Shown one piece after another: positions 9,115-54,300 of a stretch of 64,000 nucleotides of DNA (positions are counted from its first letter, which is position 1; the number at the start of each line of letters is the position of its first letter). The translations under genes were made by a program, and so were the position numbers. The notes below the pieces were generated by a model. The model had not been told where the DNA came from. It worked only from the letters and a program-made list of their open reading frames with translations, and ran no database searches. This DNA comes from Luidia sarsii (lineage: Eukaryota > Echinodermata > Asteroidea > Paxillosida > Luidiidae): the NCBI GenBank assembly GCA_949987565.1, contig OX465105.1:868001-932000 (forward strand), in the 5' to 3' direction.

Positions 9115-9560
9115 AGTGAGGGGTTTCAACCAATCAGTTCCCATTCTTGGGATCACGTGACTACATGTACGCTCGCAACTAAAGATGGCTGCCCCATGAT
9201 CACATTGGTTAAGTGACAAAGTCGTTTTGTCGGAGATGCATGTAATTCTAAACATATTTCCCTGATTGTCAATCATTTGACATCCTGCAATCATGATCAG
9301 ACATGTGAAATGGAGTGTATTTTAAATGTACATGTTTCAAAAACACTGTCCAAACTTTCACAGAAAAATTACTGGACAGAGACTATTCATAACCCGAGGT
9401 CAAGCTTCTCACAAGCAAAGTATCTCCCGAAAACCGATCCCAACTGGTTCACAAACTCCATACTAAAACCTAGAAAACCAAACCCCTTGTGTTCAGCACC
9501 ACCTACAACCCAGCGGTTAACCACCGTGACCTGCGATGGAAATGTTAGTATATAAAGGCA
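9115..9560 (+). promoter_or_regulatory. Promoter-like block upstream of the long 90 bp array
   Basis: Ordered motifs: an inverted CCAAT area (CCAATCAG), an E-box TCACGTGA at 9153-9160, AAGATGGCTGCC (YY1-like) at 9182-9193, and TATATAAA at 9549-9556, about 90 bp before the first minisatellite unit. The same order is kept at 17743-18190 before the second array. Motifs only; no transcript evidence. Confidence 0.35.
9277..9555 (+). CDS. Hypothetical open frame upstream of the 90 bp array
   Basis: The frame runs from a non-ATG codon, with its first ATG in GAAATGGAG at about 9310, and encodes YLPKTDPNWFTNSILKPRKP before TAA inside the TATATAAA motif. It is kept in the second copy at 17905-18183 with very few changes. 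The product is not recognised. As the copies are recent duplicates, coding status is unproven. Confidence 0.2.
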   Translation: MTSCNHDQTCEMECILNVHVSKTLSKLSQKNYWTETIHNPRSSFSQAKYLPKTDPNWFTNSILKPRKPNPLCSAPPTTQRLTTVTCDGNVSI

Positions 9561-9639
9561 AAACTCCCCTTGCCTAAACAAACCCCCATCCCAGATGATT
9601 CTGGTTCCTTTGAGGAACCGGATGAAACCCTGGACACAC

Positions 9640-12600
9640 TGCTCTCCTTACTAGAGGAGCAAGTCATCCACCCAATAACCAACCTACCCGGTCACTACAA
9701 CCTAAACCAAATGGCACACCAATGGGCACTGCTCTCCTTACTAGAGGAGCAAGTCATCCACCCAATAACCAACCTACCCGGTCACTCCAACCTAAACCAA
9801 ATGGCACACCAATGGGCACTGCTGTCCTTACTAGATGAACAAGTCATCCACCCAATAACCAACCTACCCGGTCACTCCAACCTAAACCAAATGGCACACC
9901 AATGGGCACTGCTGTCCTTACTAGAGGAACAAGTCATCCACCCAATAACCAACCTACCCGGTCACTCCAACCTTAACCAAATGGCACACCAATGGGCACT
10001 GCTCTCCTTACTAGAGGAACAAGTCATCCACCCAATAACCAACCTACCCGGTCACTCCAACCTAAACCAAATGGCACATCAATGGGCACTGCTCTCCTTA
10101 CTAGAGGAGCAAGTCATCCACCCAATAACCAACCTACCCAGTCACTCCAACCTAAACCAAATGGCACACCAATGGGCACTGCTGTCCTTACTAGAGGAGC
10201 AAGTCATCCACCCAATAACCAACCTACCCGGTCACTCCAACCTAAACCAAATGGCACACCAATGGGCACTGCTGTCCTTACTAGAGGAGCAAGTCATCCA
10301 CCCAATAACCAACCTACCCGGTCACTCCAACCTAAACCAAATGGCACACCAATGGGCACTGCTGTCCTTACTAGAGGAGCAAGTCATCCACCCAATAACC
10401 AACCTACCCGGTCACTCCAACCTAAACCAAATGGCACACCAATGGGCACTGCTCTCCTTACTAGAGGAACAAGTCATCCACCCAATAACCAACCTACCCG
10501 GTCACTCCAACCTAAACCAAATGGCACACCAATGGGCACTGCTGTCCTTACTAGAGGAGCAAGTCATCCACCCAATAACCAACCTACCCGGTCACTCCAA
10601 CCTAAACCAAATGGCACACCAATGGGCACTGCTCTCCTTACTAGAGGAACAAGTCATCCACCCAATAACCAACCTACCCGGTCACTCCAACCTAAACCAA
10701 ATGGCACACCAATGGGCACTGCTGTCCTTACTAGAGGAGCAAGTCATCCACCCAATAACCAACCTACCCAGTCACTCCAACCTAAACCAAATGGCACACT
10801 AATGGGCACTGCTGTCCTTACTAGAGGAGCAAGTCATCCACCCAATAACCAACCTACCCGGTCACTCCAACCTAAACCAAATGGCACACCAATGGGCACT
10901 GCTGTCCTTACTAGAAGAGCAAGTCATCCACCCAATAACCAACCTACCCGGTCACTCCAACCTAAACCAAATGGCACACCAATGGGCACTGCTCTCCTTA
11001 CTAGAGGAGCAAGTCATCCACCCAATAACCAACCTACCCGGTCACTCCAACCTACATGTAAACCAAATGGCACACCAATGGGCACTGCTGTCCTTACTAG
11101 AGGAGCAAGTCATCCACCCAATAACCAACCTACCCGGTCACTCCAACCTAAACCAAATGGCACACCAATGGGCACTGCTCTCCTTACTAGAGGAGCAAGT
11201 CATCCACCCAATAACCAACCTACCCGGTCACTCCAACCTAAACCAAATGGCACACCAATGGGCACTGCTCTCCTTACTAGAGGAGCAAGTCATCCACCCA
11301 ATAACCAACCTACCCGGTCACTCCAACCTAAACCAAATGGCACACCAATGGGCACTGCTGTCCTTACTAGAGGAGCAAGTCATCCACCCAATAAACAACC
11401 TACCCGGTCACTCCAACCTAAACCAAATGGCACACCAATGGGCACTGCTCTCCTTACTAGAGGAGCAAGTCATCCACCCAATAACCAACCTACCCGGTCA
11501 CTCCAACCTAAACCAAATGACACACCAATGGGCACTGCTGTCCTTACTAGAGGAGCAAGTCATCCACCCAATAACCAACCTACCCGGTCACTCCAACCTA
11601 AACCAAATGGCACACCAATGGGCACTGCTCTCCTTACTAGAGGAGCAAGTCATCCACCCAATAACCAACCTACCCGGTCACTCCAACCTAAACCAAATGG
11701 CACACCAATGGGCACTGCTCTCCTTACTAGAGGAACAAGTCATCCACCCAATAACCAACCTACCCGGTCACTCCAACCTAAACCAAATGACACACCAATG
11801 GGCACTGCTGTCCTTACTAGAGGAGCAAGTCATCCACCCAATAACCAACCTACCCGGTCACTCCAACCTAAACCAAATGGCACACCAATGGGCACTGCTC
11901 TCCTTACTAGAGGAACAAGTCAACCACCCAATAACCAACCTACCCGGTCACTCCAACCTAAACCAAATGGCACACCAATGGGCACTGCTCTCCTTACTAG
12001 AGGAGCAAGTCATCCACCCAATAACCAACCTACCCGGTCACTCCAACCTAAACCAAATGACACACCAATGGGCACTGCTGTCCTTACTAGAGGAGCAAGT
12101 CATCCACCCAATAACCAACCTACCCGGTCACTCCAACCTAAACCAAATGGCACACCAATGGGCACTGCTGTCCTTACTAGAGGAGCAAGTCATCCACCCA
12201 ATAACCAACCTACCCGGTCACTCCAACCTAAACCAAATGGCACACCAATGGGCACTGCTCTCCTTACTAGAGGAGCAAGTCATCCACCCAATAACCAACC
12301 TACCCGGTCACTCCAACCTAAACCAAATGGCACACCAATGGGTACTGCTCACCTTACTAGAGGAACAAGTCATCCACCCAATAACCAACCTACCCGGTCA
12401 CTCCAACCTAAACCAAATGGCACACCAATGGGCACTGCTCTCCTTACTAGAGGAGCAAGTCATCCACCCAATAACCAACCTACCCGGTCACTCCAACCTA
12501 AACCAAATGGCACACCAATGGGCACTGCTCTCCTTACTAGAGGAACAAGTCATCCACCCAATAACCAACCTACCCGGTCACTCCAACCTAAACCAAATGA

Positions 12601-15138
12601 CACACCAATGGGCACTGCTGTCCTTACTAGAGGAGCAAGTCATCCACCCAATAACCAACCTACCCGGTCACTCCAACCTAAACCAAATGGCACACCAATG
12701 GGCACTGCTCTCCTTACTAGAGGAACAAGTCAACCACCCAATAACCAACCTACCCGGTCACTCCAACCTAAACCAAATGGCACACCAATGGGCACTGCTC
12801 TCCTTACTAGAGGAGCAAGTCATCCACCCAATAACCAACCTACCCGGTCACTCCAACCTAAACCAAATGACACACCAATGGGCACTGCTGTCCTTACTAG
12901 AGGAGCAAGTCATCCACCCAATAACCAACCTACCCGGTCACTCCAACCTAAACCAAATGGCACACCAATGGGCACTGCTGTCCTTACTAGAGGAGCAAGT
13001 CATCCACCCAATAACCAACCTACCCGGTCACTCCAACCTAAACCAAATGGCACACCAATGGGCACTGCTCTCCTTACTAGAGGAGCAAGTCATCCACCCA
13101 ATAACCAACCTACCCGGTCACTCCAACCTAAACCAAATGGCACACCAATGGGTACTGCTCACCTTACTAGAGGAACAAGTCATCCACCCAATAACCAACC
13201 TACCCGGTCACTACAACCTAAACCAAATGGCACACCAATGGGCACTGCTCTCCTTTCTAGAGGAGCAAGTCACCCACCCAATAACCAACCTACCCGGTCA
13301 CTCCAACCTAAACCAAATGGCACACCAATGGGCACTGCTGTCCTTACTAGAGGAGCAAGTCATCCACCCAATAACCAACCTACCCGGTCACTCCAACCTA
13401 AACCAAATGGCACACCAATGGGCACTGCTCTCCTTTCTAGAGGAGCAAGTCACCCACCCAATAACCAACCTACCCGGTCACTCCAACCTAAACCAAATGG
13501 CACACCAATGGGCACTGCTGTCCTTACTAGAGGAGCAAGTCATCCACCCAATAACCAACCTACCCGGTCACTACAACCTAAACCAAATGGCACACCAATG
13601 GGTACTGCTCTCCTTACTAGAGGAGCAAGTCATCCACCCAATAACCAACCTACCCGGTCACTCCAACCTAAACCAAATGGCACACCAATGGGCACAGCTC
13701 TCCTTACTAGAGGAGCAAGTCATCCACCCAATAACCAACCTACCCGGTCACTCCAACCTAAACCAAATGGCACACCAATGGGCACTGCTGTCCTTACTAG
13801 AGGAGCAAGTCATCCACCCAATAACCAACCTACCCGGTCACTCCAACCTAAACCAAATGGCACACCAATGGGCACTGCTCTCCTTACTAGAGGAGCAAGT
13901 CATCCACCCAATAACCAACCTACCCGGTCACTCCAACCTAAACCAAATGGCACACCAATGGGCACTGCTCTCCTTACTAGAGGAGCAAGTCATCCACCCA
14001 ATAACCAACCTACCCAGTCACTCCAACCTAAACCAAATGGCACACCAATGGGTACTGCTGTCCTTACTAGAGGAGCAAGTCATCCACCCAATAACCAACC
14101 TACCCGGTCACTCCAACCTAAACCAAATGGCACACCAATGGGCACTGCTCTCCTTACTAGAGGAGCAAGTCATCCACCCAATAACCAACCTACCCGGTCA
14201 CTCCAACCTAAACCAAATGGCACACCAATGGGCACTGCTCTCCTTACTAGAGGAGCAAGTCATCCACCCAATAACCAACCTACCCGGTCACTCCAACCTA
14301 AACCAAATGGCACACCAATGGGCACTGCTCTCCTTACTAGAGGAGCAAGTCATCCACCCAATAACCAACCTACATGTACCCGGTCACTCCAACCTAAACC
14401 AAATGGCACACCAATGGGCACTGCTCTCCTTACTAGAGGAACAAGTCATCCACCCAATAACCAACCTACCCGGTCACTCCAACCTAAACCAAATGGCACA
14501 CCAATGGGCACTGCTGTCCTTACTAGAGGAGCAAGTCATCCACCCAATAACCAACCTACCCGGTCACTCCAACCTAAACCAAATGACACACCAATGGGCA
14601 CTGCTCTCCTTACTAGAGGAGCAAGTCATCCACCCAATAACCAACCTACCCGGTCACTCCAACCTAAACCAAATGGCACACCAATGGGCACTGCTGTCCT
14701 TACTAGACGAGCAAGTCATCCACCCAATAACCAACCTACCCGGTCACTCCAACCTAAACCAAATGGCACACCAATGGGCACTGCTCTCCTTACTAGAGGA
14801 GCAAGTCATCCACCCAATAACCAACCTACCCGGTCACTCCAACCTAAACCAAATGGCACACCAATGGGCACTGCTCTCCTTACTAGAGGAGCAAGTCATC
14901 CACCCAATAACCAACCTACCCGGTCACTCCAACCTAAACCAAATGACACACCAATGGGCACTGCTCTCCTTACTAGAGGAGCAAGTCATCCACCCAATAA
15001 CCAACCTACCCGGTCACTCCAACCTAAACCAAATGGCACACCAATGGGCACTGCTCTCCTTACTAGAGGAGCAAGTCATCCACCCAATAACCAACCTACC
15101 CGGTCACTCCAACCTAAACCAAAATATGGCACACCAAA
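9640..15138 (+). repeat. 90 bp minisatellite, 61 units
   Basis: The unit runs from GCTCTCCTTACTAGAGGAGC to AATGGCACACCAATGGGCACT. First and last unit starts (9641 and 15053) differ by 5412 bases, which is 60 x 90 plus two 6 bp insertions. Units differ by a few recurrent substitutions. Both insertions are CATGTA after TA (11055-11060 and 14373-14378). A block of nine units is duplicated with an 810 bp shift, for example GTCAACCACC at 11920 and 12730 and GCTCACCTTAC at 12346 and 13156. Two forward frames are open over most of the array; each is broken once (frame 1 TAA at 10800, frame 2 TGA near 9836). This reads as a homogenised array rather than a proven gene. Confidence 0.9.
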
Positions 15139-15204
15139 ATCTGAGATGACCGGATCTGCAAATACTGCAACTGACGAGTGCCCAGAGGCGCGAAAACAAA
15201 AAAC

Positions 15205-15900
15205 TAAATGATTGTTGGTAGGTCAGTAAGAGATGGTTGGGCTGTATATACTGTAATGCATCGTGATAAGAAAAGAATACAGTGTGCTGTCAAGTGGAAC
15301 TACATTCATAGTGGATGTATACATGATAGAACCACACAACAGTCACATACTCAGAACAATGCCATATCAATACGCCGCATTTGACTTTGCCCTTTGGGCG
15401 AGGCTGAATATTAGTGGTGTACGTGATAATTCTATGTGTACTTATGATCATTTCAGGGGGTGTGTGATGTACATTGCATAGGTGTATACAGACTCATCTG
15501 ATCTTTACTGGTTCAACTGACACCTTGTTACCTGGGCACAACTTGGTAAGTTTGTGCCATTGTTCACTTTATTTCCTGACCAGGTCTGAGGTATTGATTC
15601 CTAGCAGTAGCAGGACCTATCTCAAAGGATTTTGCCTTTGCCTTTTTTAGAAAGGTCTTGCTTGCATGGAAATGTCACAGCCTTTAAGTGTATGACTTTG
15701 CAGTTTGTAACGTTTTTCTTTTATTATTACGCTAACTGTCTGACTATAAGCCCTACATTAAACAGAGTGTATACATATGTTTGAACAATGACAGTCATTG
15801 TTCTTAGCAGTGCTTTTCCTGAAAAGCATAACAGAGCTGCAAATAATATCACAATTACTGGTTGTCATTTTCCAATCTGGGAACCATTTAAAACGATATA
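15205..15900 (+). repeat. About 870 bp dispersed unit, copy 2
   Basis: Follows the 3' flank of the long array; its first part is missing. The small frame is at 15263-15478. The second half (15585-15700) contains a decayed inverted pair of PLE-terminus-like segments (TAGCAGGACCTATCTCAAAGG and AGAAAGGTCTTGCTTGCATG). Confidence 0.7.
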
Positions 15901-15913
15901 TATACATGTAAGT

Positions 15914-16785
15914 ATGGGTGGCTGTTGAGTTTTAAGGCTACGTGACAAACACTGTATGGTGGTCAACATATTGATAGTGTTTGTAGTTTTTTTACATCAA
16001 CAAGAGCTGGAGGCTCTCACTGGCCCATGAGTACCAAGGCAAGCAACAACTCCTCAAAAAACAGTAATTTTTGTTAAAAAAAGAAAGATTGTTGATAGAT
16101 CTGTAAGAGATGGATGGGCTGTATATAATGCATCGTGATAAGAAAAGAATACACTGTACAGTGTGCTGTCAAGTGGAACTACATTCATAGTGGATGTATA
16201 CATGATTGAACCTCACAACAGTCACATACTCAGAACAATGCCATATCAATACGCCGCATTTGACTTTGCCCTTTGGGTGAGGCTGAATATTAGTGGTGTA
16301 CGTGATAATTCTATGTGTACTTATGATCATTTCAGGGAGTGTGTGATGTACATTGCATAGGTGTATACAGACTCATCAGATCTTCATTGGTTCAACTGAC
16401 ACCTTGTTACCTGGGCACAACTTGGTAAGTTTTTGCCATTGTTCACTTCATTTCCTGACCAGGTCTGAGGTATTGATTCCTAGCAGTAGCAGGACCTATC
16501 TCAAAGGATTTTGCCTTTACCTTTTTTAGAAAGATCCTGCTTGGATGGAAATGTCACGGCCTTTATAAGTGTATGACTTTGCAGTTTGTAACTTTTTCTT
16601 GTATTATTACACTAACTGTCTGACTATAAGCCCTACATTAAACTGAGTGTATACATATGTTTGAACAATGGCAGTCATTGTTCTTAGCAGTGCTTTTCCT
16701 GAAAATCATTACAGAGCTGCAAATAATATCACAATTACTGATTGTCATTTTCCAATCTGGGAACCATTTAAAACGATATACATGT
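15914..16785 (+). repeat. About 870 bp dispersed unit, copy 3
   Basis: A full unit, tandem with copies 2 and 4. It carries a 7 bp difference at 16151 (ACTGTACAGTGTGCTG against ACTGTGCTG in the other copies). The small frame survives from about 16163. Confidence 0.75.
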
Positions 16786-16789
16786 AAGT

Positions 16790-17310: not shown

Positions 17311-17334
17311 TCACTTCATTTTTTCCTTTGTTTT

Positions 17335-17742: not shown

Positions 17743-18190
17743 TTATCCAGTGAGGGGTTTCAACCAATCAGTTTCCATTATTGGGATCACGTGACTACGC
17801 TCGCAACTAAAGATGGCTGCCCCATGATCACATTGGTTAAGTGACAAAGTCGTTTTGTCGGAGATACATGTAATTCTAAACTTATTTCCCTGATTGTCAA
17901 TCATTTGACATCCTGCAATCATCATCAGACATGTGAAATGGAGTGTATTTTAAATGTACATGTTTCAAAAACACTGTCCAAACTTTCACAGAAAAATTAC
18001 TGGACAGAGGCTATTCATAACCCGCGGTCAAGCTTCTCACAAGCAAAGTATCTCCCGAAAACCGATCCCAACTGGTTCACAAACTCCATACTAAAACCTA
18101 GAAAACCAAACCCCTTGTGTTCAGCACCACCTACAACCCAGCGGTTAACCACCGTGACCTGCGATGGAAATGTTAGTATATAAAGGCAAA
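17743..18190 (+). promoter_or_regulatory. Promoter-like block upstream of the short 90 bp array
   Basis: Copy of 9115-9560: CACGTG at 17788-17793, AAGATGGCTGCC near 17810 and TATATAAA at 18177-18184. It lacks the CATGTA insertion present at 9164-9169 in the other copy. Confidence 0.35.
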
Positions 18191-18267
18191 ACTCCCCTTG
18201 CCTAAACAAACCCCCATCCCAGATGATTCTGGTTCCTTTGAGGAACCGGATGAAACCCTGGACACAC

Positions 18268-18893
18268 TGCTCTCCTTACTAGAGGAGCAAGTCATCCACC
18301 CAATAACCAACCTACCCGGTCACTCCAACCTAAACCAAATGGCACACCAATGGGCACTGCTGTCCTTACTAGAGGAGCAAGTCATCCACCCAATAACCAA
18401 CCTACCCGGTCACTCCAACCTAAACCAAATGGCACACCAATGGGCACTGCTCTCCTTACTAGAGGAGCAAGTCATCCACCCAATAACCAACCTACCCGGT
18501 CACTCCAACCTAAACCAAATGGCACACCAATGGGCACTGCTCTCCTTACTAGAGGAGCAAGTCATCCACCCAATAACCAACCTACCCGGTCACTCCAACC
18601 TAAACCAAATGGCACACCAATGGGCACTGCTGTCCTTACTAGAGGAGCAAGTCATCCACCCAATAACCAACCTACCCGGTCACTCCAACCTAAACCAAAT
18701 GGCACACCAATGGGCACTGCTCTCCTTACTAGAGGAGCAAGTCATCCACCCAATAACCAACCTACCCGGTCACTCCAACCTAAACCAAATGGCACACCAA
18801 TGGGCACTGCTGTCCTTACTAGAGGAGCAAGTCATCCACCCAATAACCAACCTACCCGGTCACTCCAACCTAAACCAAATGGCACACCAAAAA
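18268..18893 (+). repeat. 90 bp minisatellite, second locus, 7 units
   Basis: Unit starts run from 18269 to 18809 in exact 90 bp steps. The unit, the leader (AGATGATTCTGGTTCCTTTG) and the tail (CTGACGAGTGCCCAGAGGCG) match those of the 61-unit locus, so this is the same locus type with an eight- to nine-fold smaller array. Confidence 0.9.
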
Positions 18894-21525: not shown

Positions 21526-22052
21526 ACTATACAGTAGTTGTGGTTGGATTAGTTCATACCTATATACATGCTGCATAATATTGTACATTTTGAGCAACAG
21601 AGATGGCAGTTTACTTCCATGTCTACTTCATTTCCAACATTGATCTTTTCTGGCAAACTTCTTCTTCAAAACAATACTATCAAATACATTTCCTTGGACC
21701 AAATCAATTTGCACTGGATCAAAAAAAAACATATCTGATGTACATGTTCATGTAGCAGTCAGATTACCTTTTGAATTTTCATGGTACAGATTTTATCATT
21801 ACTTTGCTTCAAATTATAGCTCATAACAACTGTCTCATTTGGATGTGAAGAAACAAAAGAAGGCACCAAACTAATGAGAGATGAATCTGCCCTGCAGATA
21901 TATCCAACTAGAACTGAAATTTCAAGCTTCATATAAATTCTGATTATTGTCCTCAGAAGCAGAAAGCTCCTGCTATGATCTAAACGTCAAGCCCTCTAAA
22001 GATTTGCAGCTATCACTTTACATACAGTATCTGTTCTCATCACCTGTTTCAG
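21526..22052 (+). other. 5' flank or first intron of TRIM gene 2
   Basis: AT-rich sequence. A decayed PLE-like motif near 21955-21985 (AGAAAGCTCCTGC, then TAAACGTCAAGCCC). CACCTGTTTCAG ending at 22052 looks like a splice acceptor, so a non-coding first exon probably lies upstream. No promoter could be fixed. Confidence 0.4.
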
Positions 22053-22353
22053 GTCAGTCACCATGGCTTCATCGGACTCCTTATCACTAAGTGGTTTACT
22101 GGAGTGCAATATTTGCATGGAGGAGTTGAGTGAGGACAATGTCCCACGTGCTCTCCCATGCTCGCACGTGTATTGCACTACATGTCTGAGCAAGCTAGTC
22201 AGGGACCATAGAGGCAAGATCAAGTGTCCAGATTGCCGCACAGAACACATTATCATTAATGTGGAGGAGTTGAATGTCTCTCGCCCCATCATGCAACTTA
22301 GAGAGCTCAAACACACTCAGAAAATAAAAAGAGAGGCAGAACGTCAGAAACAG
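22053..22353 (+). CDS. TRIM gene 2, exon 1 (RING)
   Basis: Ten UTR bases after the acceptor, then ATG at 22063 and 97 codons, ending AAACAG before GTAAGA. It encodes LLECNICMEELSEDNVPRAL at residues 12-31, then CSHVYCTTC and CPDC. It ends in a basic helical stretch (KREAERQKQ) that may start the coiled coil. Confidence 0.85.
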
Positions 22354-25300
22354 GTAAGACATCAGATAAACATCCAATCACTGTTTGAGTTCTAAGTCAG
22401 ATTACAAATGTTGTGTTTTCTGCAGGCCCTCATCTCATCTTTCTAGTCACTTCTTGTGATTCAATTTTAAAAAGGACAAACTTTGTTAAGACAGCTTGCA
22501 ATATGTTCCTTAAATTGTGGAAAATAGCAGAAAATCCACTCATGCTAATTAATTATGCATGAGAAGTGTGAGAACACATTTTTTTTTGCTAAATACATTG
22601 TACTTGCTGTTTCCGGAAAGTTTAGACATTTGGTTTTAATTTGATGCCAAATTCATTCATGCAGGACACTTTTTGAAATTCATTGGTCATGTTCACCTTT
22701 GCGATTCAATTTTAAAAAGGACAAGAGTTCACAAAAATGTCTTCTCTCAGATTGATTTATTATAGATCAATAGACAAAATGAATATTCAAATACAAATTA
22801 AGGTTGATATAATGTGGGATAATGAAAGTAATACTATAGGACAATATAATGGGTATTAATGTAAATGACTTGTAATTTATTATATAGGCATAGTTTGGAA
22901 TTTAAATAGTCTATACTAGTCTATATTAGACACTACATTGGACACTCTCTCTACCTGTAATAAGCACATAATAAGCACATACCCCCAGTAATTAGAGAAA
23001 ATGAGTTAGCAGGAAATAGCCGTCATGCGACTGCGCACCCAACAGCCGTTGAGTCACAAGACTGACGGGTAGAAACTTTTGACCAAGCACAGAGGAACTT
23101 GAACTTGACGACTACCTGTACATTGCAGAACCAAACTCACCCAATCTCATGGATTCTGAATGTGTTAAGAGCATAAGCCTGATCAAGCCAGCAAGGTTAG
23201 CTATAGCTTTGGGTTCAAACTCTCAATGCATGGTGTGGCTATGGCGGTTTCTGGTGTAAATACTGCAATAATTAGACGGAGGGTGAAAGTTAAATTCACG
23301 TGTGTGCGCAGTCAACTCTCACCAGAGAGAGGAAGGTCACATACGCCACGGCCAAGTACATGTGTATCATGCGTGTTACGTATAACTACATCCAGGATCT
23401 TTGGGATACAATTTGTATTTACTGGGTTCCATATAATTATACAAATAATTAGTACAGTGGAAGTAGGGGTTCAGAATAATTACTGGCGTGAAATTTATAA
23501 ATAAAGAGGAAATTGAAAACATGAAGATTTAAAAAGCTCCATGGGATGGGACTACACAATGACACTACTTTGACAGATTGATATAAAATGTACAAAAATG
23601 TTGCAAACTGCTTACTGACTCAAATTACCAAAATGCAAATCTCAAAATTTAGTGGGCCTGACGTTTTGATCCTAGCAGGACCTTTCTCAAAGGCAGAGTT
23701 AAAGTTAGACTTGCTTCAAGTCTGGCTAACATACAAATAATCCATTCCATATTTTCATTGATTTTTTTCTTTTCAAGTTCAATTCTAAAAAATTAAAAAA
23801 CCTATTGCTATAGGAATTGTAAAGCAAAAGAACCTCCTGGCTTTGTTCTGTTGATTTAAGAGCAAAGAAAAATATAACTATAGCCTTTTCCAATTCAAGG
23901 TTTAAAACAAATTGATGAAGACTTGAATTGAAAAAGCTGCATCCACTTTGTGTGATTCCTGAGCTGCTGTAGCCAGGTTTACAACAATTGGTTGTTTGCA
24001 TCTGAATGAAAGCAGGGGTGTGATCCCTGGAGATATACGGCAGTTAATAGTTGAATTGCAACACACCTACATGTACATATGTACAAAGGCATTGGTCAAT
24101 CGTCTCTAATCTTTGTGGGTTATTGAGTGTGCACCCTGGCCATTGTCAGGAGGCACCGTACAATATAGCAAATATAGCTTGAATCATGTACAAATCTTAT
24201 GACGTTTTATAAGGTGTGTCGAGGGCCAGTTATCCCGTGTCCAACCCCCATACCATCTGAACACACAGCCCTTGACACACCACCACTCCACACTATAACA
24301 CAATACACTCATGGAGAGAATCCTGAGCAGGTACCACGTTGCATCATTGATATGCACCTACATGACCATTGTACTGTATATGACTTTGCATCGAGGAGAA
24401 TGTACTCCAGCTGGCAATCAGGCAAAGCCGGATGGGTTGAGAGGCTGTAGTGTGGAAAGGCCTAGCCAGGTTTACAACCATTGGTTGTTTGCATCTAAAT
24501 GAAAGCAGGGGTTTGATCCCTGGAGATATACGGCAGTAAATGGTTGAATTGCTTCTGACTGGCGCCCCCACCCCAGCAAAGACTAGTTGACTATTTGGGA
24601 AGGCCACCATCTAAGGGCTGGATAGCTCAGATGGTAAGAGCGCTGGTATGCAAAACCAGAGGTCTGGGGTTCAAATCTTGGTCTAGACAAACTTTTCTTT
24701 TGTCATAGTTTCAATCTGACTGGAAGTAATGATTAAACTTAGAAACTAAATAGGATTTGTAATCTGAAGTCAATTTTGCAGAGAGTAAGATGTCTAAGAT
24801 GACCACCTGTAATTCTTTTGCTTGCTATCGGCAGATGATACAGGCTGTCTAAAACTGAGAGGTTAGCAAGATACACCCAGACACCTCCTAAGCTTACACT
24901 GTACCAAAGGCTGTTGTCATGAAAACAAATTCTTGTCGATATGTCGCGAGAATTTTATGCCGACTGTCGACATTGTCGCGACAGAGACCCGATTTAGTCA
25001 AAAATCTGAAGTCACAATGTCGGAATTTTTTAAAGTAATAAACGAATGGGGCATGTCAAACCGCCATAGTTGTGAACTTGTGAAATTAGTTTTCATGGAT
25101 AATCTTAATTTCAATACAATTTCATATTTAATGGCTTTCGTATTTAAGATTATACACAACAAAATAATTTTTGTGCCGATATTGGGTGTTACAGTCGTAA
25201 TTTCCTAAAAAAAATCATAAAAAAGCGATTGCTCATTATTTATTCATGACGTCATCGATCGGCGATGCGTGCGTTCTCACTGCAAGAAATAATGAATATT

Positions 25301-28300
25301 TATGAATTCGCTGCACAGCGGCTGCAGTGGTTTTCCTATTGGCTATGTACACATGTACATGGAAGTTGGAGAACCAGATAGTTTCAATGAAAAGAAAAGA
25401 CGTCACCGTCCGCACCTAGCTAAAGGTAGCCGCGTATTGGGCACCCAAAACCAGCCGCGTATTGGGCCCCAAAACGGAGGAGGTCGCGTATTCAGCCATA
25501 CATTCAGACAAACCTAGAACGTATGCGGCAAAGGAGGCCTTTTTCCGATGTACATAATGTACTTCCGGTCCGTTTTTCAACGAAATAAAATACGCGGCCG
25601 GCGGGATTTTGGGCCCAAAGATGCGGTTACTTTCAGCTGGGTACCGACCGCGACGCACGTGCGATCTCATTTCTCGATCCTTCCCTCGGACGTCCACGAT
25701 CTTTCCCGATCTCTGTATTGCACTGGTATCCCGTACGCACGTGTATTAAATGCATGCGATGCAGCAACGTATACCAGCTACTGTACTGCTGACGACCGGC
25801 CATACAAACGTGCGCTATACAGTAGTGACAGTATTTACACTGTACATGTGTACATCGTAATGGCAAAATGCGTTCGGTGAACGATTTTCTTTGGTCGCGT
25901 CGCGATCCATTCCAACTTCCAACATATTTATAGTAACTATTATTTTGCGGCGTGGATAAGCAAAAATGAAATGCTCAGCGCACAATTTTAGGATTTTTTG
26001 TTCCCTTTTTATTCCCTTCTTTTCAGAGAGATTGACCATTATGACTAGAGGTAGGCTAATGGATTTTAATGTTTTTGTCGCGACAACCGAAAAGCCTAGT
26101 CGACATGTCGGAATATTTTCTTTGTCGCGACAATGTCGACAAAAGCCTTGTCGACAACAGCCCAAGACATCTCATTCCTGTGAAGGTCATTCTTTGTTCC
26201 TTTCAGAGGTCGGATGGGTCAGACTCAGTGTCTACTGCCAGTGGGAAGACAAAGAGTGCATCGCAGACTTCTGGTTCTGAGATGGAAGGACTCCTTCCCT
26301 CCTTCATGGCTTTGATGCACCGGGCTTCTCAGTCGATGGCAGATGCTTCTCACTCTGGAAAGCTTTTGGAGCTGGCTATCAATGAGACTCAGGGGAGACA
26401 GGACACTCTCTTAAAGACAATGGAATCTGCAAAACAGACCATCGAGGATTGCATGGACCGGATTGTCAGAGCAGCCACCGAACGGAAGCAGCAGCTCCTT
26501 CAAAGCTTAGAAGATGCCTTCCAAGAAAGCATGTCCCCTCTGACAGCCATGAAGAAAGATTTCAAAGCCAGACAAGAAGCCATTCAGATATTCTGCAGCA
26601 AGATGGCCCAGCAGTTACCATCCTTGCAGGGACATAATCAGGCTGATTCAGAGGAGATTGACAAGATGATTAAGGAGAATCAGGACAGTATTAATAGCTT
26701 AAAAGATAAGATCCTGATTCCCGTCAAAGAGGTTTCTCTGGACTCTGATGATGACAAATATGAGAGCATTCTTGCGGATGTCTCGTCTTGGGGTGGAATT
26801 AAGACAGAAGACACGATACATGAAGGGCCTCCCATCCCCCCTCAGACGCAGCCCAGTTTTGCAGCAATGACTACACATTACCTTGCCAAGACCAAGGCAA
26901 TGCGTGTCATTGGCTGCAGGACAGGCACTGACCTCAAGCATCCATACTGTGTAGCTCAGCTTCCAAATGGTGACATTGCCATTGGGTCATTGTTCAGCAC
27001 CCAAATCATAGTCTGTGGATCTGAGCTGAAGACAAAGAGAGTGTTTTCCCTGCCATCTGGGGAGGGATCAATGTATTCAGCAGAAAGAGGTGAGCTCTTC
27101 ATCTGCCGAAGTTGTTTTTACCTTAAAGGGGAATGCAACCCAAGAAATAAAGTTTGCTCATCTGATTGGGTGTTAAAAACAACCTACACGTACAATTACT
27201 TATGAGCCACTCACGTATGTTTTTCATAAAGAGACAAAATCATGGAATTGTAGAGCCTCTGATGGTTGAATTTGCATTCCTGTACGTCGCCATCTTTTTG
27301 AAGGTGCCGCCACCAATTGCGGGGGTGTGATGATTCTGCGGAGAAGACGGCAACCGTGTCTGATTGATCAATAAACCTTTTTGACATTCGCAAAGCATCA
27401 TGGGTATAGATGACAAACTGGCCGTATTTTTATCATACAACTCTATGGCAAAGCGCGTATTAAGTTCATGAATTGTTTAATTTTTTTTCTCAAAAACCAG
27501 ATTGAGTTCAGAAATAAAACTCACACAGAGTTTTCGTCTAGCAACAAAATAATTTCTTTTGTCGGAACATTGAGTGGGTAGTTTCAGAGAAATCAGTGAC
27601 TGGATGACAATCACAATGCGTACATCGCGTGCCACTAGCTGCATGCACACGCCAAGTTTTCCATTCAGTCACCAAGGGAATCTCCACTGATTTCTCTGAA
27701 ACTACCCACTCAACGTTCCGACAAAAAATATATTTTGTTCCTGGTATCTAGACGAAAATTCTGGATGAGTTTCATTTCTGGACTCCAACTGGTTTTAGAG
27801 AAAAAAATATCAAGATTTTACGTGCTTTGCCATAGAGTTGTGCAGTAAATATACCGGTACATGTACATGTACGGCCAGTTTGTCATCTATACCCATGATG
27901 CTTTGCGAACGTCGAAAAGGCTTATTGCGCTTGTTCAATCCTCCCAATTTTAACTAAATTTATCAATCGACATTTTCATACATAAATTGTATACCCCAAA
28001 AATAGTACAAACATACACATTTACATGTGCTTGTATTTTTAAAATTAATTTATGCTTAACAATGAAGAAATCAAACTGATTCCTGCAGTCTTCACCGGGA
28101 AGGATCTCACATGCACGTTCTGCCTAGTCTTTCACGCAGACTGCCCAACGCCATGCCACCCCTGCAGCACAAAATATGACACGGTATGCAATGTATGTAA
28201 AATACATGTATCTACACGTGTGATTGAGTTACAGATGAGCGGTCTGCGCGAAAGACTAGGCAGGACGTGCATTGGAGAATAAGTAAACATTTATGCAGGG

Positions 28301-31300
28301 ACAGAAACGAAAACAATTAGGACATTTGTGAAGCTGTTGATTCACGTGTTGCCACCACTGGTCGATGTGGAATAATTTTTCTACTAAGAAACTGCATGTT
28401 CTTTCAGTATCCTTTCTTGGTTTTGAGCCAGTGAGTTTGGCCCACAACTGACGCAAGTCCTCCCAATCCTACTCGGTGAAGTGATCGCTACAGTACAAAT
28501 CACATTCACATCATTTCTATTGTATTGCCTATTGAGTATTGGTAGCCGATTTTGAGAAATTTCTCCACTTTGGTGGCCGCAGCCCACTTCCTAATTAACT
28601 CAGTTTTCTTGTCCTTGTTGGGAATTGCATGGAAAGTGTTTTCCAGCTTTTTCCCGCTGGCATTTTTACAGCCAAAAGCCTGGCAGTACACCATCATTTA
28701 GCTCACAAGTGTACACAAACTGCATGCAGTAGGGGGCACATCCGGGTACCTCATAGGGCAGTTCTCCGCAAAAACATCACACCCCCACAATCAGCAGCTG
28801 CCCCTTCGAAAAGATGGCGACGTACATGTACAGGAACGCAAATTCAACCACTTAATTCCATGAATTTCCCCTCTTTATGAAAATTGTATGTGAGTAGCTC
28901 ATAGGTAATTGTAGGTTGTTTTTAACACCCAATCAGATAGGCCCTAAGCAAACTTGATTATTTGGGTTGCATTCCCCTTGCAGCAAAGTCCTGCTAGCAT
29001 TGAAACACCCAACCCTCTAACTTAGCTTTGGTCCCTTGTTAGCTTTGGTCCCTTCAGGTCATGTTAGTCAGCAAGCAGTTTGGAAACATGTTTGCTTGAC
29101 TTTATTTTCCCTCGTTTGTGTTTTCTGGAAGTGGCTTTTCATCTTTTTTCCATGGGAAAACAGATTTCAAGCAGTCAAAAACCCTAACGCACCTCAATCC
29201 TCCAATTTCTTCTGGTGGTTTGGAGAATTTGAGATGCATCCCAGTAAGTTAGACCTGTGGTTGATTTCATCAAACTCATGGTAACTTACGACTCATCAAT
29301 TAACGATACACAGAAGCCATAGGCCCTACAGTACAGCCTGTGACAACTTATGATTGGTGATCAGAAGGCTTTGTGAAATCCTAGACTTTTCATTTACACT
29401 ATACCACAGGGAACCACAATATGCTAAGTACCGGTAGGTACAGGGCCATATACCACAGAATACCACAGGCATTTGTGTGCATGTGCAGAGGACAGTATAC
29501 CACAACATACATGTACCACAGAAAAACCAGGTAAACTGGTAAACTGGTAAATTGTGGTATAGATTAGAAACTCTCAGACACTGAATCATAATATACTTGG
29601 GACTGACCACAGCAACTGTCACTTTTCAATTCCATCACATGACCTTGACCAGCTTGGTGGCCAAGTGGTTAAGCCACTAGAAAGTAGGAGTCATGGTTTG
29701 AAGCCCGCCTGAGCCACCACTACCTGAGTTTCTTTATGTTTTTCCAAGCAGCTTTCAGTACTAGCTGTATTTCATGTGATTTGTTTAACAGGAATGTGCG
29801 TGACTCCAAATGGTAAACTCTGCATCAGTGATCCTGGTATGAAGACTGTGCATGTTGTTACACCAGAAGGCAGACTGGAGAGTAGATTCAACACATGTCT
29901 ACCTCCCCTGAAGAATGGCTTTTATCCTGGGGGACTGGCCAGCAACAAGGAAGGGGAGGTGTTTGTATGTGATCGGAGCAACCATCTCATCCGTGTCTTT
30001 GATCAGAGTGGTCAGGAATGTCGTCGATTTGGGGGCCAGGGTGAGGAGCCAGGGAAGCTGCGCGACCCACATGACCTGGCTGTGACACCTGATGGCAAGG
30101 TGCTTGTGGCAGATTATGAAAACCATAGAATACAGGTGCGGTGTTACAGAGCAATCAAAACCTTTTCTTACAAAATTAATATCTTCCCAAATTGTCTGTC
30201 TGTGGGCTCTCAGCTTTCCTTTTTGCCCATCTGTCATATTGTTGTGTATTTGTTTTCATTTGTTCTCCCTTTCTATCGGTTTTTGTCTTTGCTATTTTGT
30301 CTTACAGAAATGTACGAGTACTGAAACCTAGTTTTCAAGGATTTGTTTTTGCTATTGTCAGAAAGCTACACTGTTTTTGCAACATACATTTACATGTATT
30401 TCTATTTTTATGATTTTGTTCTTTATCTCTGAGATTCCATAGTCTGTTTCACAACCAATTGCACTTTGCATCTGCTGAAAAGGGCGTGATCCCTGGAAAA
30501 ACAGATAATGGTTAATAGTTTCTTAGGCATTGCCATAGTTACATTATAATGTAACTTTATGGGATAATTGGGATTACATACAGGCATTGAGCATAGGTCA
30601 CATGACATTAGCCCCCGCCCAGTGCACACTGATTGGATAGACAGGTCACTGCTCTCCCCACGTAGCGCAGGCATGAGGCTCTGCAATGGCTATATAAGGT
30701 GAGCATCGCTAGCCCATGGACAGGTTGGACCTTTTCTTTGGCTGCACAGGGCAGACCTTCCTGGTAGGTTTGCACTCTCACTACTCCTCGCTTGTTGGTA
30801 GTAGGGCCGTGCAGTTTGCACAGAGACAGTATAGGACCCTCTGAGGGGCCTGTGTGGTGCGGTCAGTGGAGGTAGGGGTTCCCTGCTGTGGCCCTTGCAG
30901 CATTAGTTGCAAGGGGGCAAAGCCCCTGACATCTGTCTCCCTTGAGCTAAGCAAACCCATGTTCTTTGAGCTTAGGGGCCGTGTCGCTGGTACGTTGCTG
31001 TCAATTGTCTGGGTGGTGCGTGTGCTGGCATAAGAGGTTTGTGTGCTAGCTCGGGGTGTAAGGGCTATAACCGTGTGGTGCATCGTACGTAGAGGCTGGG
31101 GCTTGTGGCTGTAACCTGCACATTGTTAGTGGTGTGGGGCTGCATCCCTAGGCTGGTTGTGGGCCTGTGGTTGATGTCATCAAACCCATCATAAATTACG
31201 ATCAAGCACAAGAAAATGAGCGATGCACAGAAACCATACGACCTGTCACAACATACGATGGGTTATCTATCATAAGTTGAGTTAACCAATTTTAGGAAGC

Positions 31301-43915: not shown

Positions 43916-43924
43916 ACCTTGACC

Positions 43925-45149: not shown

Positions 45150-45624
45150 ACTGTACATCACTACATGTACATGTACATGTGTACATCACATACTGTACAT
45201 GTACTATGTACATTTGTACATGTACATGGTACAGTGTACATGTACACGTACATGTACATGTACACTGTACATGTACACTGTACACTGTACATGTACACTG
45301 TACATGTACATGTGCATGCACATGTACATGTACATGCACATGATACAGTGTACATGTACATGTACACTGTACATGTACACTGTACATGTACACTGTACAT
45401 GTACACTGTACATGTACATGTACACTGTACATGTACACTGTACATGTACATGTGCATGCAATGCACATGTACATGCACGTGGTACAGTGTACATGTACAT
45501 GTACACTGTACATACATGTACACTGTACATGTACTGTACATACATGTATATGCACGTGGTACACTACTGTACATGTACATGTAAACTGTACATGTACATG
45601 TACATGTACATGTACATGTACATT
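45150..45624. repeat. TACATG / TACACTG microsatellite array
   Basis: About 475 bp built almost wholly from TACATG and TACACTG (or TACAGTG) words in mixed order, for example TGTACATGTACACTGTACA. Because the motif is palindromic, open frames appear on both strands; these are artefacts. A MITE abuts its right end. Confidence 0.9.
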
Positions 45625-45626
45625 TA

Positions 45627-48785: not shown

Positions 48786-49347
48786 ATTAGTCCCACTTAC
48801 TGGGCCGCTAGGAGCTAATGTAGTAAAAAGCAGATTTTCAATCGAAGGCCTTAAAATTGCGTGAAATCGCGTCCAAAGATTTAATAAAAAGCACCCGAGT
48901 CCCGACGGATTCTACACATGTCAAGACGAACTTCATCGGTACTTATGATTGATTTTTGGACTGCAATTCTGAGCTGTTTCTGTTGTGGGCATCGGACATG
49001 TCGCGTTGTGAGCCTCTACCCGAATCGAATCCTACGTTTCGATTCCCCCTTTCGGGAAGGATTAAATCCCGAAATTGCGGGATTCAATCCCCCAATTGTT
49101 GAGTGTAAACGCAAAATGAGGATGTGACACGGCGACATCCAGTAGTGAGTTGTAGGAAGCCTGAAAGCCCGCGATAATAATATTTATTGGAGAGACGCTC
49201 CCTCAGTACAGGACGCATCTGCACGTTACTCGTTAGGCGTGTAGTCGTTGCTCATTCCATGCTCGTTCTCTCGTTCTTGTGTCGCCGTATCGCGGACAGT
49301 TTTTTTTAATTCGCCCATTCCAACCTTGTCGATCGTAACATTGGTAG
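48786..49347. other. Intergenic, CpG-containing, nothing recognised
   Basis: A short self-similar stretch (GATTAAATCCCGAAATTGCG, then GGGATTCAATCCCCC) lies at 49050-49095. The words TTGAGTGTAAACGC and GATTGAGTGTAAACGCG recur near 49100, 49830 and 49870. Confidence 0.4.
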
Positions 49348-49608
49348 CCATGGCGCCCATTTGGTGTCGATGATTGTCGTGGACGGGTGACCGGTCGGGT
49401 ATGGACAGATTTAGAGTTCAAAACTTTCCTTGACATTTGGGCAACAGAGGAAATTAAGACCAAGCTAGACGGGACTGTCCGCACCAATGCAGTTTGTACC
49501 CAGATAGCCAATAATATGAGAGAGAAAGGGTACTATAGAACTGCAAAAGAAATCAAAAACAGTATTGAGACAGTATTAGGGGCACCAGTAGGAGTAACAT
49601 CGCAGTGA
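49348..49608 (+). pseudogene. Myb/SANT-like DNA-binding domain, partial
   Basis: The frame encodes GRVWTDLEFKTFLDIWATEE, then IANNMREKGYYRTAKEIKN. This fits the Myb/SANT-like trihelix domain (WT.EE...LL.IW, then GY.RT..Q...K) found in host genes and in the accessory proteins of Harbinger-type transposons. There is no ATG in frame after the upstream TAG at 49345; a well-placed ATG (GCCATGG, 49348-49354) opens another frame that stops after seven codons. The third helix is cut short by TGA at 49606. A broken exon or transposon remnant; which one is open. Confidence 0.5.
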
Positions 49609-49920
49609 AATCCTCCATTTTCGTATATCATGCGGACGGAAGATAGAAGATGGAAATGTTGCAACGACAAAGCACAACGTCAACGAAAAGGATGTACACA
49701 GTACAGTACATGTATGCGTTGTGTGCAGTATGCGTGCTTCCGAAGTGCGCGAAAAAATGGCCCAATGGTGGCTATTGCGCAAACTCCATGACCTTCTTTG
49801 CGGTGAAAAGGGGGATTGGAGGGCAATCAGGATTGAGTGTAAACGCGACACAAGTTATCCTTTTCAGGATTGAGTGTAAACGCGGTGTATCACCCTTCAT
49901 CTATCTTGTGTTCACCCTTT

Positions 49921-50130
49921 AGCCGCATTTCCACTGGACTTATTTTGGTTAAAGTAACCAAGACGATGGTTACTTTGACCAAAATGAGTCCAGTGGAAAC
50001 GGCCCAGTCAAATTTCTCTCGGTTACTTTAACAAGTCCAATGGTTACTTTTACCGAGCAACCTCTGCCCAGTAAAAGTGACCAGGTACTGTAAGTTTAAC
50101 CGAGCCGATTAGTCCAGTGGAAACGCACCA
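49921..50130. repeat. Inverted-repeat element with CCACTGGACT ends
   Basis: GCATTTCCACTGGACT near 49925 pairs with AGTCCAGTGGAAACGGCC near 49988 and again with AGTCCAGTGGAAACGCACC near 50110. Inside are opposed copies of GGTTACTTT. MITE-like, and a related CGGTTA-rich copy continues to about 50400. Confidence 0.5.
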
Positions 50131-50989
50131 CTCGGTTAAATGCGACTCGGTAAAAAACACATCCGGCCCATGACGTAACACGTACATGCACTGTGCACAG
50201 CGTCTGCTTCATGTTGCGCGCCTAAATGTACAGTACACGTACATTGTGTATCCGGCTGACACTTGACCTTCATGAGCCGTTATATTGCCAGCTCGGTTAC
50301 TTTAACCATCGTCTCGGTTAAATTTGACCGACTCAAAAGTCCAAGTGGGAACGACAGTCAAATTTGACCATTGGAAATGTAACCATCGTCTCGGTTAAAA
50401 ATTAGTCCAGTTAGTGCTTGCGCAACACGCTTAGTCTATTTAGTACAGTAGTTAGTGCTTGCCCAACGCATTGAGTTTGTTCTTCATCTATTTTGCAGTT
50501 AGTGCTTGCCCAACGCATTGAGTTTGTTCTTCGTCTATTTTGCAGTTAGTGCTTGCCCAACGCATTGAGTTTGTTCAAAGTCTATTGAGCAGACTTTATA
50601 TGTACTGTAGTGCCTGCCCAATGTGCTGAGTTTTCCCAATGCATTGTTCACCCTTTGTCTATATTGCCCAACGCGCTACATGTATATTGGTCAACGCGCT
50701 GAGTTTGCCCTTCGTCTACTTTGCAGTTTGTGCTTGCCTAACACACCGAGTTCGCTCTTTGTCCATTTGGCAGTTTGTTCTTGCCCAACGCGCTGATTTT
50801 GTTCTTCGTCTATGTAGCAGTTAGTGCTGAGTTAGCTCTTCGTCAATTTGGCAGTTATGCAGTGCTTGCCCAACGCGCTGAGTTTGTTCTTCGTCTATGT
50901 AGCAGTTAGTGCTGAGTTAGCTCTTCGTCTATTTGGCAGTTATGCAGTGCTTGCCCAACGCGCTGAGTTTGTTCTTCATCTATGTAGCA

Positions 50990-51325
50990 TGCCTCTCCTT
51001 CTTCCATCTTGGCCTCTCCTTTTGTCTCTGTCTATCTCTGCCGCTTATGTATTGGTCTCTATCTCTGCCTGTGCCACTGTCTCTGCCTCTACCTCTCCCT
51101 ATTCTTCTATCTGGGTCTCTATCTCTGTCTCTTCCTCTGCCTCTACATGTACCTCTTCTTCTGTCTGGGTCTCTATCTCTGTCTCTTCCTCTGCCTCTAC
51201 ATGTACCTCTTCTTCTGTCTGGGTCTCACTCTCTGCCTTTGCCTCTGTCTCTGCCGCTGTGTCTGTCTCTACCTTTATCCCTGCCTCTACCTCTACATGT
51301 ATCTCCTTGTAATAACCTCTGCCTC
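50990..51325 (+). repeat. Pyrimidine-rich low-complexity block inside the satellite
   Basis: Runs of TCTCTGCCTCTACC-type words, including two copies of TCTGCCTCTACATGTACCTC. The serine/leucine-rich frames over it are compositional artefacts. Confidence 0.8.
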
Positions 51326-54300
51326 CATGTGATGCTTGCCAAATGCGTTGAGTTTGTTCTTCGTCTATTTGGCAGTTACCGGTATGCAGTGCTTGCCAAA
51401 TGCGTTGAGTTTGTTCTTCGTCTATTTAGCAGTTACTGCTTGCTCAATGCGCTGAGTTCGCCATTCTTGTATTTTGCAGTTAGAGCTTGCCCAATGCACT
51501 GAGTTTGTTCATCGTCCATTTGGCAGTTCCTGCTTGCCACATCGCGCTGAGTTTGCTCTTCGTCTATTTGGCAGTTACCATTACGCAGTGCTTGAGTTCG
51601 GCCTTCGTCTATTTTGCAGTTAGTTCTTGCCCAACGCATTCAGTTACACACTGTAGCTCTTTGTCTATTTTGCTGTTCCTGCTTGCCACATCAACGTGTT
51701 GTTCACCCTTCATCTATTTTGCAGTTAGTGCTTGCCCAATGCGTTGAGTTTGTTCTTCATCTATATAGTATAATAAGTAGTTAGTGCTTGCCCAACGCGT
51801 TGAGTTTGTTCTTCATCTATTTATTAGTTAGTGCTTGCCTAATGCGTTGAGTTTGTTCTTCATCTATTTAGTAGTTAGTGCTTGCCTAACGCGTTGAGTT
51901 TGTTCTTCATCTATTTAGTAGTTAGTGCTTGCCTAACGCGTTGAGTTTGTTCTTCATCTATTTAGTAGTTAGCTTGCCTAACGCGTTGAGTTTGTTCTTC
52001 ATCTATTTAGTAGTTAGCTTGCCTAACGCGTTGAGTTTGTTCTTCATCTATTTAGTAGTTAGTGCTTGCCTAACGCGTTGAGTTTGTTCTTCATCTATTT
52101 AGTAGTTAGTGCTTGCCTAACGCGTTGAGTTTGTTCTTCATCTATTTAGTAGTTAGCTTGCCTAACGCGTTGAGTTTGTTCTTCGTCTATTTTGCAGTTA
52201 GTGCTTGCCTAACGCGTTGAGTTTGTTCTTCATTTATTTAGTAGTTAGTGCTTGCCCAACGCGTTGAGTTTGTTCTTCATCTATTTAGTAGTTAGTGCTT
52301 GCCCAACGCGTTGAGTTTGTTCTTCATCTATTTAGTAGTTAGTGCTTGCCCAACGCGTTAAGTTTGTTCTTCATCCATTTAGTAGTTAGTGCTTGCCCAA
52401 CGCGTTAAGTTTGTTCTTCATCTATTTAGTAGTTAGTGCTTGCCCAACGCGTTAAGTTTGTTCTTCATCCATTTAGTAGTTAGTGCTTGCCTAACGCGTT
52501 AAGTTTGTTCTTCATCTATTTTGCAGTTAGTGCTTGCCCAACGCGTTAAGTTTGTTCTTCATCCATTTAGTAGTTAGTGCTTGCCTAACGCGTTGAGTTT
52601 GTTCTTCATCTATTTAGTAGTTAGTGCTTGCCCAACGCGTTAAGTTTGTTCTTCATCTATTTAGTAGTTAGTGCTTGCCTAACGCGTTGAGTTTGTTCTT
52701 CATCTATTTAGTAGTTAGTGCTTGCCCAACGCGTTGAGTTTGTTCTTCATCTATTTAGTAGTTAGTGCTTGCCCAACGCGTTGAGTTTGTTCTTCATCTA
52801 TTTAGTAGTTAGTGCTTGCCCAACGCGTTGAGTTTGTTCTTCGTCTATTTAGTAGTTAATGCTTGCCCAACGCGTTGAGTTTGTTCTTCATCTATTTAGT
52901 AGTTAGTGCTTGCACAACGCGTTGAGTTTGTTCTTCATCTATTTAGTACATGTAGTTAGTGCTTGCCCAACGCGTTGATTTGTTCTTCGTCTATTTAGTA
53001 GTTTGTGCTTGCCCAATGCGTTGAGTTCGTCCTTCGTCTATTTGTGCATTTAGTGCTTGCCTAACGCATTGAGTTCGCCCTTCTATTTTGCAGTTACACA
53101 CACAGTAGTGCTTGCCAAATGCGCTGAGTTTGTTCTTCTATTCAGCAGTTAGTGCTTGACCAACGTGTTGTTCACCCTTCATCTATTTTGCAGTTAGTGC
53201 TTGCCTAACGCGCTGAGTTTGCTCTTCGTCTATTTTGCAGTTCGTGCTTGCCTAACGCACTGAGTTAGCTCTTCGTCTATTTTGCAGTTCGTGCTTGCCT
53301 AACGCACTGAGTTAGCTCTTCGTCTATTTAGCAGTTAGTGTTTGCTCAACGCACTGAGTTCGCTCTTTGTCTATTTTGCAGTTAGAGATTGCCCAACGCA
53401 CTGAGTTCGCCATTCGTGTATTTAGCAGTTAGAGATTGCCCAACGCACTGAGTTTGTTCATCGTCCATTTGGCAGTTACTGCTTGCCACATCGCGCTGAG
53501 TTTGCTCTTCGTCTATTTGGCAGTTACCGTTACGCAGTGCTTGAGTTCGGCCTTCGTCTATTTTGCAGTTACTGTACATGTAGTTCTTGCCCAACGCATT
53601 CAGTTACACACTGTAGCTCTTCGTCTATTTGGCAGTTCCTACTTGCCACATCGCGCTGAGTTCGCTCTTTGTCTATTTGGCAGTTACCGTTACGCAGTGC
53701 TTCCAAAAGCGTTGAGTTTGTTCTTCGTCTATTTAGCAGTTAGTGCTTGCCTAACACATTCAGTTACACACTGTAGCTCTTCGTCCATTTGGTAGATCCT
53801 GCTTGCCCAACGCGCTGAGTTTGCTCTTCGTCTATTTTGCAGTTCGTGCTTGCCTAACGCACTGAGTTCATCCTTCGTCTATTTAGCAGTTAGTGCTTGC
53901 CTAACACATTCAGTTACACACTGTCGCTCTTCGTCCATTTGGCTGTTCCTGCTTGCCACATCGCGTTGAGTTTGCTCTTCGTCTGTTTGGCAGTTACCGG
54001 TATGCAGTGCTTGCCAAATGCGTTGAGTTTGTTCTTCGTCTATTCAGCAGTTACTTGCTCAGTGGTTGCTCAATGCGCCGAGTTCGCCATTCGTGTATTT
54101 TGCAGTTAGTGCTTGCCTAACGCACTGAGTTTGTTCATCGTCCATTTGGCAGTTCCTGCTTGCCACATCGCGTTGAGTTTGTTCTTCATCTATTTAGTAG
54201 TTAGTGCTTGCCCAACGCGTTGAGTTTGTTCTTCATCTATTTAGTAGTTAGTGCTTGCCTAACGCGTTGAGTTTGTTCGCCATCTATTTAGTAGTTAGTG

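Follow-up and report, generated by a model that had tools for sequence, protein, structure and literature searches.

Miniature inverted-repeat transposable elements (MITEs) occur within TA microsatellites, and footprints of the Tc1 transposon of Caenorhabditis elegans were reportedly described by Plasterk in 1991. Footprints of Tc1, Tc3 and Sleeping Beauty are TA-flanked remnants of the element ends, the 5' ends of Tc1/mariner elements being cut 2-3 nt inside (PMC2170065), and the lengths given are 2-4 bp for Tc1/mariner elements (PMC7913693) and 0-4 bp for Passer (PMC9976928); both ranges include a 4-bp core. For the Stowaway MITEs of Triticeae, the inferred scars are of 2-4 plus 1-2 bp, as fragments of terminal inverted repeats (TIRs) between duplicated TAs, with five distinct scars in one intron and one insertion adjoining an older scar (PMC1925063). 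The present analysis concerns a 64,000-nt stretch of the sea star Luidia sarsii (assembly GCA_949987565.1, contig OX465105.1, positions 868,001 to 932,000; hereafter the window), in which the hexamer CATGTA recurs as an insertion after TA, yielding TACATGTA. We read this insertion as a scar left by the excision of Tc1/mariner-type elements whose ends are CA...TG, with a probability of about 0.77. As with Tc1, Tc3 and Sleeping Beauty, the remnants of element ends are flanked by TA; the difference is that the footprints here are inferred genome-wide and that the complete 2+2 form, TACATGTA, is in the lead. TIR fragments enclosed by duplicated TAs, and insertion beside an old scar, are features of Stowaway too, whereas here many unrelated sites and a scar-like target context are involved. 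As with MITEs in TA microsatellites, an element lies in a TA-rich simple repeat, but the repeat unit here is the element's predicted scar.

In the proposed mechanism, the entry of an element would duplicate its TA, and at exit the transposase would cut 2 nt inside each 5' end, the flanks retaining CA and TG. End joining would then produce TA-CA-TG-TA, a net gain of CATGTA; for the ends CACTGCC...GGCAGTG, the 2+2-nt scar would be TACATGTA. Cuts of 3 nt or trimming would leave CACTG/CAGTG, CTG/CAG, CA or TG, and CAC...GTG ends would give CA+TG (TACATGTA), CAC+TG or CA+GTG (TACACTGTA, TACAGTGTA), or CAC+GTG. Elements with other ends could account for CCGG and perhaps GGCC.

The sequence-only reading had reported the recurrence of CATGTA after TA and proposed a Tc1/mariner excision scar. 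All seven sites that it cited were confirmed by re-reading (Table 1), and its proposal gains support from template-free gains, palindromic cores, a family of related cores and a Tc1-like element. The inserts lie exactly at TA, with TA kept on both sides. Gain and loss were indistinguishable in the two-copy pairs 9162/17797 and 28823/27283, while the direction of gain was clear in the 90-bp and 47-bp arrays from their empty-site matches (Table 1). The inserts at 52947 and 53575 are repeated at 57785 and 58413, 4,838 bp away, with identical 25-bp flanks, and each pair is therefore treated as one event within a longer duplication. Compared with its consensus, the 90-bp array (61 units, 5,501 bp) contained 69 mismatches and three indels, two of which insert CATGTA after separate TAs of a unit without ACATGT.

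A self-comparison of 262 kb returned 481 indels with distinct flanks, including 48 of six bp. CATGTA was the commonest six-bp class (6 of 48), the remainder lying largely in simple satellites. TA-duplicating indels comprised CATGTA, CCGGTA, CTGTA, CACTGTA, CATTGTA, CACATGTA, TGGTA and GCCTA, with scar-like cores represented by CTG, CACTG, CATTG, CCGG and TGG, as well as further TA-duplicating indels unlike element ends. In a joined-flank test over 312 kb, 144 of 1,655 TA-N4-TA sites had an empty paralogue. CATG was the core at 31 of these, 15 of them within the array at 45162-45623 and several inherited; outside arrays, it accounted for six events that are clearly separate (the 1594 family, 9162, 11053, 14371, 28823 and 52947). 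Other cores were GGCA (34), CTAC (19), CTAG (18), GTAC (17), GTAG (8) and CCGG (4), and among the matches listed GGCA, CTAC, CTAG, GTAC and GTAG were all in two simple satellites (L013 and L011). As six events are few, a larger test was carried out at a dispersed repeat.

The site chosen was a TA in the core of a foldback repeat, GGTCCTGC-TA-GGATCGAA, an insert being defined as 1-14 bp ahead of a second TA. In the 470.9-Mb assembly (227 contigs), this core had 880 TA-duplicating inserts and the reversed pattern none. Among the 100 inserts classified (C1 and part of C2), 39 duplicated TA alone, with CATG at 13 and every other core at three or fewer, 44 duplicated CTA or more (GTGCTA 14), and 17 were exact tandem duplications (CTGCTA 11, GGTCCTGCTA 6). 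Three words made up 38 of the 46 six-bp inserts (GTGCTA 14, CATGTA 13, CTGCTA 11), and CATGTA represented 13 of the 19 that duplicated TA alone. That other six-bp indels are as common, which the sequence-only reading had named as refuting, is thus countered only in part: CATGTA led in the 262 kb, though with a small share, and was equalled by GTGCTA at the repeat, though few words made up most six-bp inserts there. The GTGCTA class has relatives such as CTGTGCTA and CTTAGTGCTA that repeat TGCTA or CTA around short cores; an element duplicating 3 or 5 bp of its target perhaps left them as scars.

The same repeat bears on the spread of a single insert by gene conversion or subfamily amplification. 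Once the insert was removed, the nearest relative of the 13 CATGTA carriers was an empty copy in nine cases and another carrier in three, with one tie (pool of 32 empties and 12 other carriers), which is approximately as scattering predicts, although identities were low (0.59-0.82) and weaken this test of independence. The carriers did not cluster, and their flanks were mostly varied, except for the left flank common to L057 and L067; moreover, the two gains in the 90-bp array lie at different TAs. Copying is seemingly at work elsewhere: the sites at 1594, 2562, 19356, 35697 and 36665, like the 52947/57785 pair, appear to have been inherited. The gains at the repeat TA are accordingly read as mostly, though not all, independent, and copying is very unlikely to be what spread the insert.

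The word itself was strongly over-represented. The 44,026 bp of the window outside arrays contained TACATGTA 33 times, against ~1.55 expected under an order-2 Markov model (66 against 3.1 on both strands). Tandem repeats were masked because satellites swamped unmasked k-mer counts, and the resulting 201-kb sample comprised the window and 22 other 10-kb stretches, 17 of which start at 2.0 Mb of a contig. In this sample, none of the other 256 palindromic 8-mers reached the z-score of TACATGTA, which had 63 distinct-flank sites where 4.4 were expected, the window being denser (35 in 44,096 unmasked bp, or 7.9 per 10 kb) than the other stretches (30 in 157,334 unmasked bp). TAGGCCTA (18 against 1.5) and TACCGGTA (15 against 1.5) were also among the top four of these words, the second-ranked, ATAATTAT, not being of TA-N4-TA form. 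The top TA-N4-TA cores CATG, GGCC and CCGG are self-complementary, like two joined TIR ends; no element with CCGG or GGCC ends was identified, other transposase families not having been searched. Also raised were TACAGTA/TACTGTA (62 against 26), TACACTGTA (10 against 2.0) and TACATTGTA (13 against 2.7). TAGGCCTA and TATAATTATA were likewise strongly over-represented. In open PMC papers, TACATGTA as a whole word was matched only in papers that, by their titles, concern Phytophthora, and nothing on footprints or ACATGT was found for amphioxus (Branchiostoma) among the matches listed.

Palindromic cores could also be added by break repair at TA that involves no transposon, for example by snap-back or polymerase-theta synthesis, and CATG, GGCC and CCGG are indeed palindromic, with TAGTACTA (8 against 1.4), TATATATA (16 against 3.2) and TACTAGTA (7 against 1.4) mildly raised. 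However, generic repair should not single out CATG; TAGATCTA and TAACGTTA had 0 sites and TATGCATA two against 3.5 expected, and the odd-length cores CTG and CACTG exist. We consider this origin highly improbable.

The main alternative in the sequence-only reading was replication slippage, by which a palindromic ACATGT microsatellite would make and spread the insert. TACATGTACATGTA occurred 65,803 times genome-wide, compared with 41,518 for the reversed control, which is another phase of the same repeat. Arrays like that at 45162-45623 are present, and 19 of the 63 distinct-flank TACATGTA sites have no CATG, TACA or TGTA in the surrounding 25 bp on either side, so that growth beside existing tracts is likely for many. 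Slippage nevertheless needs a template, and the 90-bp unit, the 47-bp unit and the GGTCCTGC-TA-GGATCGAA core gained exactly CATGTA while holding no ACATGT. Gains are thus not restricted to the vicinity of ACATGT tracts, those in the ACATGT-free units were not templated by an adjacent unit copy, and slippage cannot start new gains there; nor does it explain the CCGG, CTG and CACTG cores at single sites. It is refuted for new gains and may lengthen arrays, and as the origin of the insert it is very unlikely.

The 277 words between TAs in 26 TACATG-rich chains were led by CATG (92), CA/TG (27), none (20), CAG/CTG (20), CACTG/CAGTG (17) and CACATG/CATGTG (7), of which CACATG could come from CpG decay of CACGTG. 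Because mutation of CATG repeats yields some of these words too, core indels at single sites weigh more.

An element with CA...TG ends beside TA, as the sequence-only reading had anticipated, was found in L026. The HTH_Tnp_Tc3_2 domain (PF01498) had at least five matches in the genome, three of them over the cut-off, and the best was an open 353-aa frame (L026:862-1923, minus strand) with HTH_Tnp_Tc3_2 (E 9e-22) and DDE_3 (PF13358; E 3.6e-14). The frame matched the catalytic domain of SB100X (PDB; E 2.5e-48), and a protein search returned relatives up to 83% identical. The element extends from CACTGCCGTGCAAATGTTATTACGCAC to its inverted copy (TA-CACTGCC...GGCAGTG-TA), with TA flanking both ends and TACATG tracts as flanks, and the CATG core corresponds to its terminal nucleotides (CA...TG). 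It possesses the marks of a Tc1-like element, i.e. a DDE transposase with a Tc-type HTH, terminal inverted repeats and a TA duplication. The DD34E spacing, with 34 residues in Sleeping Beauty, is not kept, D244 and E291 being separated by 46 residues owing to a 12-residue insertion relative to SB100X, which is also present in all four of its closest aligned relatives (68-84% identity). CACTGCC ends are common to L027 and L030, with a more distant form in L028, and a TACCGGTACATGTACATGTA run occurs both beside the L026 element and in the compound insert at 27852.

L026 or related elements may well have made the scars, although which family made most of them is less sure than the footprint reading itself. 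A non-exclusive version of that reading assigns the scars mainly to TA-targeting elements other than the CACTGCC-ended family, and we regard it as a serious possibility at somewhat less than even odds. The PF01498 matches seem few for the number of scars, ATG|TA lies beside 12 of the 63 scars, and only weak signals surround the 19 isolated ones; the analysis turned up no further element of this kind, although it did not extend to other transposase families. Larger insertions with target duplications were present at 40 places, mostly satellite or repeat boundaries, and none was clearly Tc1-like. A CA-ended inverted-repeat pair (L019, 4421-6354) was set aside, its longest frame having 88 codons and no long transposase-like frame being present, and may be due to chance. 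A TIR scan was not used, as it did not set TA apart (TA 226 pairs, AT 219).

With the L026 element as query, 65 genome matches were obtained, with miniature copies on many contigs. All 14 junctions read, from 12 miniature copies, showed ATG|TA, and 9 of them TACATG|TA, a bias that may be inflated, as the query that selected the copies carried 6-7 flank bases and scoring covered 40 of 171 candidates. Among the matches listed, nine alignments of the 15 right-end copies span all six flank bases, and one (C2) was mismatched there. L026 and L030 themselves lie at TACATG|TA, and the full targets of two copies read at both ends were TTTTGATG-TA-CATGTACAAC and AGTGTACATG-TA-CATGTACAAT. The CACTGCC end was found in 0 of 7 predicted left ends of miniature copies. 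Over the six positions tested around the 19 isolated scars, the signal was weak (A at -3, 0.53 against 0.28), and A-Y-R half-sites were in weak excess (6 of 38, against 588 of 10,484 TA half-sites); with 19 sites, a Tc1-like target consensus was not retained.

Since the sampled miniature relatives adjoin ATG|TA, scars appear to be good targets. We tentatively propose, with rather less than even confidence, a self-seeding transposon microsatellite, in which ACATG-TA-CATGT would be preferred and each excision visit would add one CATGTA, both scar and new target. Repeated landing and leaving would turn single scars into TACATG arrays, and ACATGTACATGT would be favoured over other TAs as a target. 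If so, one microsatellite class here would be written by transposase rather than by slippage, and the link between scar and target would offer a concrete, testable route to the birth and growth of microsatellites. The footprint papers cited here treat a single locus, an assay on plasmids or comparisons between species; if the footprint reading is correct, a single genome may record very many past excisions in a readable code, the core standing for the element ends, and transposon activity could be assigned, and perhaps dated, without the elements themselves.

Several points weigh against excision as the source of CATGTA. No locus with an element in one copy and a scar in another was encountered, no search aimed at such sites having been made. 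Since CTG and CACTG each differ from CATG by a single base, they could be mutated repeats where they stand in arrays. CATGTA contributed only 6 of 48 six-bp indels in the 262-kb census, GTGCTA was as common at the foldback repeat, where exact CTGCTA duplications numbered 11, and the independence test there suffers from low identities and the flank shared by L057 and L067. PF01498 matches number only five, as a lower bound, with three above the cut-off, and other TA palindromes are mildly raised. As to targets, the flank bases in the query and the partial scoring remain a concern, L027 and L028, as members of other subfamilies, have GTG|TA and CAC|TA, respectively, at their junctions, and ATG|TA is on a side of only 12 of the 63 distinct-flank TACATGTA sites.

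Table 1. Inserts at TA and related arrays in the window (coordinates of the 64,000-nt stretch).
Position	Strand	Feature	Evidence
9162..9169	.	TACATGTA; partner near 17797 = TA	re-reading, indel census, joined-flank test
11053..11060	.	CATGTA gained after TA in a single 90-bp unit, AACC-TA-AACC	65 empty-site matches
14371..14378	.	CATGTA gained after another TA of the 90-bp unit, AACC-TA-CCCGG	67 empty-site matches
27852..27871	.	compound TA-CCGG-TA-CATG-TA-CATG-TA; TA in partner	
28823..28830	.	TACATGTA; inverted partner near 27283 = TA	
52947..52954	.	CATGTA gained in 47-bp unit; copied at 57785	285 empty-site matches each
53570..53582	.	TA-CTG-TA-CATG-TA, 11-bp insert CTGTACATGTA after TA; copy 58408-58420	
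45162..45623	.	array of 67 TA-spaced words: CATG 32, CACTG 12, CTG 3, CAGTG 3, CA 2, others 1 each	
51377..51384	.	TACCGGTA; TA in other units of 47-bp array	
16150..16158	.	TA-CACTG-TA insert relative to paralogue	
8392..8398	.	TA-CTG-TA insert, also at 15249	approximate position after left-normalisation
1594..1601	.	TACATGTA in dispersed repeat; inherited copies 2562, 19356, 35697, 36665; empty site in L018	

The 47-bp array occupies 51388-64000 and contains a 4,838-bp higher-order duplication. The 90-bp (30-codon) tandem array lies at 9637-15137 and 18265-18890, with 61 and 7 copies, respectively, and 97-99% matches, and contains stop-to-stop frames of up to 1,744 codons. Other frames in the window had RING, NHL and reverse-transcriptase family matches above the cut-offs, and a GIY-YIG match slightly below its cut-off. 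Within 22000-30324, frames with a RING finger (22000-22395) and NHL repeats (29728-30324) point to a TRIM-NHL gene.

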